Under the pieces are notes generated by a model. It did no database searches. It saw only the letters and a program-made list of their open reading frames with translations, and was not told where the DNA came from. 36,234 bases of DNA, from NCBI GenBank assembly GCA_009787355.1, contig WRGD01000140.1:1-36234 (forward strand). The letters run 5' to 3'. This document shows, piece by piece, positions 884 through 36,234 of this stretch. How positions within the stretch are numbered: position 1 is the stretch's first letter; each line of letters starts with the position of its first letter. Position numbers and translations under genes: made by a program. This DNA is from Defluviitaleaceae bacterium. Its GTDB lineage: Bacteria; Bacillota; Clostridia; Lachnospirales; UBA5962.

Positions 884-2194
884 ATGTCTAACACACTTAT
901 AAATATAAACACAAGACTTGATATTGGTGATAATGATATTTGTATTGTAGAATCTTTTCTAGGTGGAGGTGGTCAGGGAGAAGTATATATGATTTCTACT
1001 TCTAAAGGTAAGTTTGCACTTAAATGGTATTTTAAGAGAAATCAAACAAAATTTTTGAAAAATTCTTTAAAAGAGTTAATAAATAGAGGTTCTCCAAACC
1101 ATACTTTTCTTTGGCCAATACAAATAGTAGAATATAAAGGACATTTTGGGTATATAATGAACCTTAGACCGGATAATTATAAAAAATCACAAAAATTATT
1201 AGATAGAGAATTTTCTCTAACATATACATCTGTTTGTAATGCTGTTCTTAGTTTATGTGATAGTTTTAGAAAATTACATGTAAAAGGTTTGTCGTATCAA
1301 GATATATCTTGGGGAAATTTATTTATAGACCCAATAAATGGTGAAATATTGATATGTGATAATGACAATGTATCTGTGCACGGGCAAGGAAAAGTAGGAA
1401 TAAGTGGAACATATGGTTTTATGGCACCAGAAATAGTACGTGGAGACCATGGGCCTGACCAGTATAGTGATTTATTTTCTTTGGCTGTTCTTATGTTTCA
1501 GCTTCTTTTTTTAGAACATCCTTTCAATGGCAAAAGATGGACGAAAATAGCTTGTTGGGATGATTTCGCAAAGAAAAAATTGTATGGCACAGAACCAATA
1601 TTTATATTCGATCCAAATAATCTAGAAAATAGACCGATGCCAGGAGTACAGGACAATGCTGAAATATTTTGGAATATGTATCCAGATTACATTAAAAATA
1701 ATTTCATAAAAGTATTTACAAAAGGTCTAATAGATAGAGAAAATGGTAGATTAATGGAAGAAATTTGGATGGATTCTTTTAGAAAGCTAAAAGAAAATAT
1801 ATTTCCTTGTCCTTATTGTGGTCGTGAAAATATTGCTTGTGAAAATATAAATACTGTATGTTGGGGTTCTAATTGCAAGAAAAAATTGGACAATCCACCA
1901 AAAATCAAAATTTCAATAGGTAAAAGAGAACGATACATAGTTCTAAACAAAGACACAAAATTATACTCATATCAACTAGAGGGAGGAGGATACGACGAAA
2001 ATTTTGCAAATAAAGTTGTAGGTGAAGTTACAAAATCTCCGAGTGGAAAGTGGGGAATACGAAATCTTACAAATTACAATTGGAATTACACAATAGGTGA
2101 TATAAAAAAACAAGTGGAACCAAACAAGGCATTTGTATTAACAAATAATATAGAAATAGATTTTGGAAAATCGAAAGGAATCATTATCAATTAA
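884..2194 (+). CDS. Hanks-type Ser/Thr protein kinase with C-terminal zinc ribbon (TerY-P-like)
   Basis: A 436-residue cytoplasmic kinase. The glycine loop GGGGQGEVY (about 27-35), ATP-binding lysine in ALKW (K47), catalytic loop YQDISWGN with D140 and N145, metal-binding D159 in CDND (in place of DFG), and GFMAPE (178-183) are all present, so it should be active. A four-cysteine ribbon (CPYCG ... CWGSNC, about 305-325) follows the kinase domain, then a beta-rich tail of about 100 residues. This kinase-plus-ribbon layout is known from TerY-P triads, in which it is encoded beside a vWA protein and a PP2C phosphatase. Neither partner is in this window. ATG 884 was chosen over an in-frame GTG at 866 because TAGGAG at 870-875 sits 8 bases upstream. 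A consensus promoter lies at 796-824. The substrate is unknown. Confidence 0.8.
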   Translation: MSNTLININTRLDIGDNDICIVESFLGGGGQGEVYMISTSKGKFALKWYFKRNQTKFLKNSLKELINRGSPNHTFLWPIQIVEYKGHFGYIMNLRPDNYKKSQKLLDREFSLTYTSVCNAVLSLCDSFRKLHVKGLSYQDISWGNLFIDPINGEILICDNDNVSVHGQGKVGISGTYGFMAPEIVRGDHGPDQYSDLFSLAVLMFQLLFLEHPFNGKRWTKIACWDDFAKKKLYGTEPIFIFDPNNLENRPMPGVQDNAEIFWNMYPDYIKNNFIKVFTKGLIDRENGRLMEEIWMDSFRKLKENIFPCPYCGRENIACENINTVCWGSNCKKKLDNPPKIKISIGKRERYIVLNKDTKLYSYQLEGGGYDENFANKVVGEVTKSPSGKWGIRNLTNYNWNYTIGDIKKQVEPNKAFVLTNNIEIDFGKSKGIIIN

Positions 2195-3791: not shown

Positions 3792-3798
3792 ATATTTA

Positions 3799-3972
3799 CA
3801 ATCTAAGATGTTCGACAAACCTTTATTTTGAACCTACACTTTTAAACTGGGACTCTAACATAATTTGTGCAAACTTCGGGCCTCGATGTTAGTGGAAGGA
3901 GAATGTACAATTGCGGATACCCACCTAGCTTTTGCTAGGAGTCAAAATACGGGACCGACATCTTGGATTTTT
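3799..3972 (+). ncRNA. ssrS: 6S RNA
   Basis: This gene-free stretch folds into a long rod. The 5' strand CTAAGATGTTCGAC closes with the 3' strand CCGACATCTTGG, and the segment between them can form further paired arms around an open region. The ends match the classical 6S RNA ends (GATGTTCG ... CGGCATCT in E. coli). 6S RNA mimics an open promoter and sequesters the housekeeping RNA polymerase in stationary phase; pRNA synthesis releases it. A good promoter sits immediately upstream and a T-rich stretch (ATTTTTATATTTTT) follows the closing stem. The exact ends are estimates. The flanking genes have their own ribosome binding sites and do not look regulated by it in cis. Confidence 0.8.
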
Positions 3973-4116
3973 ATATTTTTAAAAATTCTAAAATAAAATT
4001 ACAAAAATCTCATTGAACTTTCCTTATAATCCTAAGTATATACACATAAATTCTTGAATATATTTAATAACAAAAATCATTTTAAAAAACAATATTTTAT
4101 TTTTCGGAGGAATAAA

Positions 4117-34346: not shown

Positions 34347-34602
34347 CAATTAACAGTATTTATAATTTTGCTAGTCATTCAAAAAAACGCCTAAAAAACA
34401 GCAAAGATATTTATCATACTTCATCTTTTTCTGCTATTTTGTTACATGACCTTTCAGATTGATTTATAAAAAATGATTTTTTCGATATTTTATTAAATTG
34501 CTACTAGATTTCTACAAAAAATTTCTTAAACTTGCTATATAATAGAGTTTAATGAAAATCAAAATAAGGTTTTCAAAACAAAATAGAGGAGGGAGGTCTC
34601 CC

Positions 34603-35097
34603 ATGTATGTAGATACAAAGCAAGCAAGCAAGCAAGCAAAGCGAATAATTGCGTTTATACTCGCATTTTTGATGGTATTTTCATCAATACCATTAGTACC
34701 ACTAACAGTGTTAGCTCAAACAATAGCTAACGAATTAAACGAATCGCCTTCTTCAGAACAAGAAGAGAATCCCGATGAAAGTTTTCCTATAGAGGAAGAA
34801 GACTCTTACGAAAACAAATACATAGAAGAAGGGGGTGATTACAATGAACAAGGAGAAGATTATGAAGACGACATCCTTTTATATGAAGAGGAATACGAAG
34901 ATGAGGGGATTTTTGGGGATTTACCAGAAACAGTTCCAATAAATGTTCCTAGCTACTCATTTAGTTCAAATCTTGTTTTTCCATATGTAAGGCAAATTTC
35001 TATAGGAAGCAATGTAAGTATTCCTATAGAAATAAATGTAAATACATCTGATAATTTTCAAGATACAATTACTATAACAGAGTATGCCTTACAATAG
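34603..35097 (+). CDS. secreted acidic surface protein, apparently truncated
   Basis: A 164-residue fragment. A signal peptide (positively charged QASKQAKRI, then a hydrophobic core AFILAFLMVFSSIPLVPL, about 10-38) precedes a very acidic low-complexity linker (about 45-105, many E, D and Y) and the beginning of a beta-type domain (ISIGSNVSIPIEINVNTSDN) that ends abruptly at ITEYALQ. This looks like the N-terminal part of a much larger cell-surface protein, cut where a recombinase-bearing element adjoins. I chose ATG 34603, with AGGAGGGAGG at 34587-34596, over ATG 34552, which has no good site. The signal-peptide region contains an AAGC tetranucleotide repeat. A TATAAT -10 lies at 34538-34543. 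It may still be secreted as a short product. Confidence 0.6.
   Translation: MYVDTKQASKQAKRIIAFILAFLMVFSSIPLVPLTVLAQTIANELNESPSSEQEENPDESFPIEEEDSYENKYIEEGGDYNEQGEDYEDDILLYEEEYEDEGIFGDLPETVPINVPSYSFSSNLVFPYVRQISIGSNVSIPIEINVNTSDNFQDTITITEYALQ
34618..34633 (+). repeat. AAGC tetranucleotide repeat, four copies, inside a surface-protein gene
   Basis: Four tandem AAGC units lie in the codons just before the hydrophobic core of the signal peptide (TKQASKQAKR). A change of one unit would shift the frame. Four copies is a short tract. Confidence 0.7.
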
Positions 35098-35122
35098 TGA
35101 TACTTTTTTAATTTAATGATAT

Positions 35123-35998
35123 TTAAACCAAGCCAATAAAGTTATAGTAAATATCAACTTGTTGACTTTTGGTTCTATTTTTAACAACCTTAACTTTCTC
35201 ATGAATAATTATTTTATCAATTAGTTCACGAATAGCTAAATGATTTAATTCTTTCAAATCAAAATATTTTTTAGCTATCTGCACAAACTTTTTTATATTT
35301 GCTTTATTATCTTTTTCTAATTTTCCCCTATTTTCTTCTTTTTCTATAAAATAATTAAGCCGTGTTTGCTCTTCTTCATAGTTTCTGCTCATTTTTAAAA
35401 AACGTTCTTCTGTTAAATGCCCTAAAGTATATTGCTCAAATAAATTTTCTATAAGTTTATCAAGTTCATTTACTCTAACTTTAGATTTGTTTATTTCTTT
35501 TTTTATTTTTATGTCATATTTATTATTATCGAATAAAATTTTCTGCTCTAATGATTTTATAAACTCATTTTCATTATTTTTTATAAAACTTGTGATGTTA
35601 TTTATACTTTGCAAAATTAGCTTCTCCAGCATACCAATTCGTATGCTATGTGGAGTACATTTACTCGTGTTTTTTCTGTACGTTCCGCAATTGTAACTGT
35701 AATCTTTAATATGTTGTTTATTTGTCCTGCAGACATAATGGGCACTACCGCAAGTTGCACAGTATAACATACCACTGTAAATAGGATGTTCTCCTAATTT
35801 TGTTGGTCTTTTTTTATTAGCTCTTATTTTTCTTGCAATATCAAAAGTTTCTTGATCTATTATGGGTTCATGTGTGTTATAAAAAACAAGTTGTTCTTCT
35901 TTAGGAATGATAATGCGTTTTTTATTTTTATAAGAAAGAGTATAACTTTTTTTATTAACTGATGTAAAAAGTATATAAAAAGCTAAATTTCTATCATT
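35123..35998 (-). CDS. large serine recombinase, C-terminal exon (split by a group I intron)
   Basis: The minus-strand frame is open from 35998 to the stop at 35123, 291 codons, but its first ATG is deep inside (35770). The sequence from about 35965 downward reads VNKKSYTLSYKNKKRI, then NTHEPIIDQETFDIARKI and RRPTKLG-type spacing (KKRPTKLGEHPIYSGML), the recombinase domain of large serine recombinases. A zinc ribbon follows (YCATCGSAHYVC ... NCG), then a coiled coil (about 35300-35560) and a C-terminal YNFIGLV of the DUF4368 type. The catalytic serine domain is missing, expected beyond the window behind the intron at 36005-36234. If spliced, the protein should integrate and excise a mobile element whose end lies just past 35123, next to the truncated surface gene. 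The exact exon edge, about 35960-36005, is not resolved. Confidence 0.75.
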   Translation of the reverse strand, partial: NDRNLAFYILFTSVNKKSYTLSYKNKKRIIIPKEEQLVFYNTHEPIIDQETFDIARKIRANKKRPTKLGEHPIYSGMLYCATCGSAHYVCRTNKQHIKDYSYNCGTYRKNTSKCTPHSIRIGMLEKLILQSINNITSFIKNNENEFIKSLEQKILFDNNKYDIKIKKEINKSKVRVNELDKLIENLFEQYTLGHLTEERFLKMSRNYEEEQTRLNYFIEKEENRGKLEKDNKANIKKFVQIAKKYFDLKELNHLAIRELIDKIIIHEKVKVVKNRTKSQQVDIYYNFIGLV

Positions 35999-36004
35999 TT
36001 ATAT

Positions 36005-36234
36005 TTTTTACGTGTTCACATTAGGTCGTTAATCAAATGCAGTTCTCTTACGAACTTCTTACGCTTTCATGTAAGCACAGACTATATCACATACCCGCCA
36101 TTACGCTTGGTATCACACCGCTTCCACCCACTTGGGTGTACTGGACTTCCGTCCATAGTCGTTGAACGTTCCTATTTCTAGGCTTCGCTGCTGATTGCCC
36201 TCTGTATGAATTTAATCATTAGCATTTAGGATTT
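36005..36234 (-). ncRNA. group I intron, IA-like, 3' part with catalytic core (runs off the window)
   Basis: Read on the minus strand, all four conserved elements appear in order: P (AAATGCTAATGATT, about 36214-36227), Q (AATCAGCAGCGAAGCC, 36181-36196), R (GTTCAACGACTATGGACGG, 36149-36167) and S (TATAGTCTGTGCT, 36074-36086). P and Q pair through TGCT/AGCA (P4) and GATT/AATC (P5). R and S pair through GACTA/TAGTC (P7). Two small hairpins between R and S, GGAC-GGAA-GTCC and CACCC-AAG-TGGGTG, resemble the P7.1/P7.2 pair of subgroup IA. CTTAC/GTAAG and AGTTC/GAACT after S fit P9 hairpins. The intron interrupts the serine recombinase gene, self-splices in principle, and needs the unseen 5' part (P1-P2, possibly a homing endonuclease or transposase gene). 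IStrons of C. difficile have the same core type, but the transposase part is not seen here. The 3' splice site is uncertain. Confidence 0.82.

Follow-up and report, generated by a model that had tools for sequence, protein, structure and literature searches.

The window (the whole stretch of DNA that was analysed, 36,234 nucleotides long) ends, on its minus strand, in what we read, with a probability of roughly 70%, as an ORF-less, IStron-type group I intron lying inside the recombinase gene of an integrated mobile element. The original prediction, that a group I intron interrupts a large serine recombinase gene at this place, remains the best reading, since the homologues of the recombinase are continuous and the 3' motif of the intron ends exactly at the junction. 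Both parts are of known kinds, and it is their combination that is unusual: one mobile element would be nested in the integration gene of another, with a ribozyme as the thing that keeps the host element functional.

The ribozyme half at the end of the contig

The window corresponds to the whole of contig C140, one of 152 in the draft genome, and the contig truly ends at position 36234. Read inward from there on the minus strand, the first 276 bases make up the 3' half of a group I intron (Table 1). As had been predicted, the Rfam model RF00028 matched the minus strand, from 36234 to 36058, with 31.3 bits (E 7.3e-6) over model positions 66-253 of 253, and cmscan flagged the match as 5'-truncated at the contig end. 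The absence of the 5' half of the ribozyme keeps the score below the 50-bit gathering threshold, and a plain Rfam scan at that threshold therefore shows nothing here. The elements Q, R, S, P6, P7, P7.1, P7.2, P8, P9, P9.1 and P9.2 are all readable; the Q, R, S and P7 parts of the P3-P7 catalytic core are thus present in the half that is visible, and the P7.1 and P7.2 side hairpins together with the P9.1/P9.2 extensions are those of class IA. The prediction had named P, Q, R and S elements with IA-type side hairpins, of which Q, R, S and both hairpins were found, while P (P4, 5' strand) falls outside the window. When nine introns from related genomes and viral contigs were compared, P7 was invariant across all nine, 94% of the cells of P7, P9, P9.1 and P9.2 taken together were paired, and two-sided changes occurred in 10 of the 19 pairs of these four helices, a result that was equalled in 0 of 500 shuffles.

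The 5' half of the intron, and with it the 5' exon encoding the catalytic serine domain, presumably lie beyond the contig end. Searches of the assembly with PF00239 or PF07508 yielded no candidate 5' exon, and the only PF00239 matches in this genome were two other recombinase genes, both of them large recombinases. When the same genome was searched for the 5' half and the 5' exon with these two profiles, with the intron DNA and with the 5' half of a sister IStron, every hit was either to another recombinase gene or due to chance; of the additional matches the best (contig C126) fell in an ordinary gene region, and no partner contig was recovered with the sister IStron as the query. The assembly is estimated to be 96% complete.

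Table 1. Features of the intron, the recombinase gene and their surroundings (positions are those of the window unless another contig is named)
Feature	Position	Strand	Basis or remark
Host gene, secreted protein	34552..35093	+	boundary by comparison with C88
Putative mobile-element end (AAAAAGTATCACTAT)	35094..35109	-	common to C88 copy, divergence beyond
3' exon, C-terminal part of large serine recombinase	35123..35958	-	domain matches, homologue comparison; stop 35125-35123
Class IA (IA2-like) group I intron, 3' half	35959..36234	-	RF00028 match, covariation of P9, P9.1, P9.2
Predicted intron 3' terminus ATCAG, terminal G at 35959	35959..35963	-	IStron 3' ends in PMC4227781; recombinase homology resumes directly after
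AU-rich inverted-repeat stem-loop, 15 bp, no ORF inside	35964..36011	-	fold -7.3 kcal/mol
GAACAC motif, site behind which IStrons carry IS genes	36012..36017	-	sequence; motif list in PMC4227781
P9.2 hairpin (GCATT..AATGTG)	36017..36040	-	covarying; 88.9% of cells paired
P9.1 hairpin (AGTTC..GAACT)	36041..36056	-	covarying; 90.9% of cells paired
P9 hairpin (CTTAC..GTAAG)	36058..36075	-	covarying; 95.6% of cells paired
S element and P7 3' strand (TAGTC, 36084-36080)	36080..36090	-	cmscan, alignment, covariation
P7.2 hairpin (CACCC AAGT GGGTG), class IA side hairpin	36125..36138	-	sequence; fold
P7.1 hairpin (TGGAC GGAA GTCCA), class IA side hairpin	36142..36155	-	sequence; fold
R element (GTTCAACGACTA) and P7 5' strand (GACTA, 36160-36156)	36156..36167	-	cmscan, alignment
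P6/P6a hairpin (CCTA GAAA TAGG)	36167..36187	-	sequence; intron alignment
Q element (AATCAGCAGC), P4 3' strand	36187..36196	-	cmscan alignment; AGCAG invariant in intron alignment
TnpB-bearing group B IStron	contig C119, ~373-2203 (L001/L090), same genome		interrupts M23 peptidase-like gene

The recombinase gene and the predicted splice junction

By its domain content the gene downstream of the intron is the C-terminal half of a TndX-like large serine recombinase: the exon holds the last 40% of PF07508, a PF13408 zinc ribbon and PF14287 (DUF4368), that is, the recombinase domain, zinc ribbon and C-terminal region of the large serine recombinases. The recombinase frame had been placed from about 35998 onward, and a frame does open at 35998, but the exon does not begin there; homology starts only at the codon 35959-35957, and 35998-35959 is therefore assigned to the intron. 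The protein was continuous across the junction in 86 of the 86 uninterrupted homologues scored, mostly as YLGHT-V-N, and the residue before the asparagine was Val in 66 and Ile in 15 of the 87 sites tallied. Among intact relatives, the nearest one (Defluviitaleaceae; 48% identity; 563-aa frame) has EYIGHT-E-NKKSYSLSYKNKKR at the position of (..)-V-NKKSYTLSYKNKKR in the window. The exon alone as the query against genome and viral contigs gave nothing that could be confirmed; a two-sequence alignment as the query gave 54 genome loci and 0 viral ones, and the junction was uninterrupted at every readable genome locus of the 54, the exceptions to reading being L127, which is truncated by a contig end, and L150 and L152, which are degenerate.

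The recombinase C-terminus occurs a second time in the same genome, in a copy with 82% identity that lies at the end of contig C88. The 3' exon in the window is intact and in phase, and its dN/dS against the C88 copy (0.11) indicates that the recombinase is under purifying selection. The sequence AAAAAGTATCACTAT is common to the regions downstream of both stop codons, after which the flanks diverge, placing the end of the element near 35094. The gene for a secreted protein next to this end was apparently truncated by the insertion, and its stop codon, TAG, lies in the end of the element; the frames related to it in the same genome (697 and 727 aa) are weak matches. The signal-peptide codons of the secreted-protein gene contain a fourfold AAGC repeat, at which slippage might occur. 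Elsewhere in the window, a 6S RNA was found at 3797-3973 on the plus strand (RF00013, 56.8 bits), and on C88 the second recombinase copy is adjoined by a small gene pair (L087, 3644-4128) that looks, by appearance only, like a RelE/ParE-type toxin-antitoxin system.

At the other edge of the exon, the order on the minus strand is GTGAACAC, a 48-base AU-rich hairpin whose ends are joined by 15 pairs, ATCAG, and then TTAATAAAAAAAG. As many end-to-end pairs occur in just 81 of the 36186 48-base segments of the window (0.2%); the energy of the stem-loop alone is unremarkable (z -2.1), and hairpin energy combined with CAG is not distinctive, many equal or stronger hairpins preceding CAG elsewhere in the window. 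We predict the 3' splice site at ATCAG^TTAATAAA (35959/35958), some 40 bases past the point where the frame opens; a terminal G at 35959 agrees with the exon phase. An end at TTTAG (~35983) was also considered and was rejected, as the homologues leave no room for the extra residues.

Taken together, these comparisons suggest that an integrated element ends in a recombinase gene and that the intron would sit in this gene, in the codon that follows the conserved YLGHT motif. Provided that the last base of the 5' exon is G, as is the case for group B IStrons (see below), the joined codon would be GTT and thus Val, the family consensus. The intron is probably competent to splice, and the pre-mRNA would then self-splice at ...G^[intron]...ATCAG^TTAATAAA to give ...YLGHT-V-NKKSY..., so that full-length recombinase, and hence mobility of the element, would depend on splicing. 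Should splicing be confirmed, recombinase output would be set by the ribozyme, and the locus would offer a simple system in which to ask if the mobility of integrative elements is tuned by group I introns. Any regulatory role for splicing is speculative, and we consider it very improbable that splicing serves as a gate on excision and integration of the element through which mobility responds to GTP, magnesium, temperature or translation of the upstream exon.

The type of intron and its likely origin

IStrons are class IA2 introns whose IS genes lie after P9.2, behind a GAACAC-type motif and within an inverted repeat (Tourasse et al. 2014, PMC4227781). Their 3' ends are TCAG, CGG or CAG: those of group A end in TCAG, those of group B (IS607 type) end in CGG, are inserted after a G-ending site and have a stem of 15-34 bp that is >80% AU, and the variant CsISt1 has AG/CAG (PMC4227781). 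IStrons are known in diverse protein genes, and ORF-less IStrons, in which only the stem-loop is kept, are also known (PMC4227781). According to the original prediction, sequence beyond the window would decide between a plain intron, one with a homing endonuclease and an IStron. This holds only in part: since an IStron keeps its IS genes between P9.2 and the 3' splice site, the 3' half by itself can speak to the IStron question, and that slot is inside the window. Neither TnpA nor TnpB was found after P9.2, where the slot consists of 48 nt without an ORF; being empty except for the terminal stem-loop, it is not that of a gene-bearing IStron and looks like that of an ORF-less one. The GAACAC motif after P9.2, the 15-bp AU-rich stem-loop and a defined 3' terminus, ATCAG, are all present, and their order matches the published ORF-less IStron layout.

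Within the IStrons, the intron fits the IS607-type group B best, in an ORF-less form. Its 3' end is CAG, unlike the typical group B CGG, and TCAG is also the group A end; the IS607 assignment therefore rests on the long AU-rich stem and on the reading frame, and the 3' end taken alone would be compatible with group A as well. The exon phase predicts a G-ending insertion site. A TTGAT-type (group A) 5' site was rejected, as it would put a TGA stop in frame. We infer that the intron arrived by IS607-type transposition and later lost TnpA and TnpB, leaving the terminal AU-rich inverted repeat alone, much as in the ORF-less BcISt1, and that it is now unable to move by itself. The assembly yielded no serine TnpA of the IS607 type, PF00239 detecting two large recombinases only, and the intron is therefore probably not mobile at present.

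An alternative is an intron of a plainer history, a group I intron of class IA that is akin to IStrons but never had an IS, splices in the same way and came by homing or reverse splicing. Such an intron would suit the finding that neither the loops from P6 to P9.2 nor the stretch behind P9.2 contain an ORF, and IStron-related plain IA2 introns are known in Fusobacterium and Turicibacter (PMC4227781); those, however, were reported to lack the stem-loop and the IStron 3' terminus (PMC4227781), both of which the window intron has in addition to GAACAC, and we regard this origin as unlikely. Since the 5' half is off the contig, it could in principle house a homing endonuclease gene (e.g. in P1/P2 or P5) that would make this an endonuclease-mobilised intron, an arrangement to which we give only a slight chance given that all loops of the visible half are ORF-free and that the related introns L001, L007 and L089 have compact 5' halves.

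Two further explanations concern the recombinase side of the junction. A serine-recombinase TnpA does follow the intron in group B IStrons, as in L179, so the downstream frame might be the IStron's own IS607-type TnpA and the gene not interrupted at all; the domain content of the frame contradicts this, as its matches are to domains from the middle and C-terminus of large serine recombinases (PF13408, PF14287), and it lacks a start and a catalytic domain and has no MerR or TnpB neighbour; the idea can practically be dismissed. There is a slim chance of a chance join of intron and recombinase fragments in the assembly, or of a dead remnant, a decayed pseudogene without an upstream exon, and such an origin would account for a contig that ends in the intron and for a 5' exon missing from so complete an assembly. 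Against it, recombinase homology resumes exactly at the intron terminus and in the phase that yields the consensus residue, and the low dN/dS of an intact 3' exon is that of a gene maintained by selection.

Related introns and known systems

A home-made profile of large serine recombinases was run against ~70 further group I intron loci, drawn from the order, the class and viral contigs, and none of those examined interrupted a large serine recombinase; the sole weak profile match was the TnpA of L179 (G438:C14), a complete IStron of the IS607 type in which the intron is followed by a MerR-Resolvase TnpA and by TnpB. No published intron in a large serine recombinase gene was found in the open-access literature searched, the coverage of which is incomplete. 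The IStron on contig C119 is inserted after TGGG, and joining of the flanks after TGGG and CGG restores the frame (VQM-GQLIGLSGNTGS). The closest intron by DNA, in G264 (L089; 73% over 191 bases), is likewise a TnpB-bearing IStron with TGGG/CGG ends, and its flanks also join in frame.

Some other loci seen along the way are recorded here. L007 (G001:C12, ~1450-2000, minus strand) is an ORF-less group A-type intron of 518 nt, located after TTGAT and ending in TTCAG, that splits off the first codons of a TrmH-like rRNA methylase gene; the join reads IIIESIDNKIVKHLK, which lacks an ATG, the start codon perhaps being ATA or ATT. On the IMG/VR contigs L026 and L027, a phage terminase-like gene is apparently split by group I introns with HNH-like ORFs, and the 36-base core motif of these introns is identical to that of the window intron.

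The known system that the window intron resembles in its layout is the ORF-less BcISt1 of emetic Bacillus cereus (PMC4227781), which has a group IA2 core and a GAAC-type motif after P9.2 and has lost both IS genes, so that a long AU-rich inverted-repeat stem-loop is all that is left before the 3' end. In contrast to BcISt1, the window intron ends in CAG rather than CGG, its host is a large serine recombinase gene and its 5' half is not seen. The group B IStrons of C119 (L001) and G264 (L089) belong to the same core family (80% identity over 81 nt and 73% over 191 nt, respectively) and are likewise inserted in frame in protein genes; they differ in carrying TnpB, in being inserted after TGGG and in ending in CGG. 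On the side of the host gene, the homologues examined are uninterrupted at the intron site (86/86 scored), and the TndX-type recombinases (Tn5397 and relatives) share with the window recombinase the zinc ribbon and DUF4368 C-terminus, ~33-48% identity and the position of the gene at the end of an integrated element.
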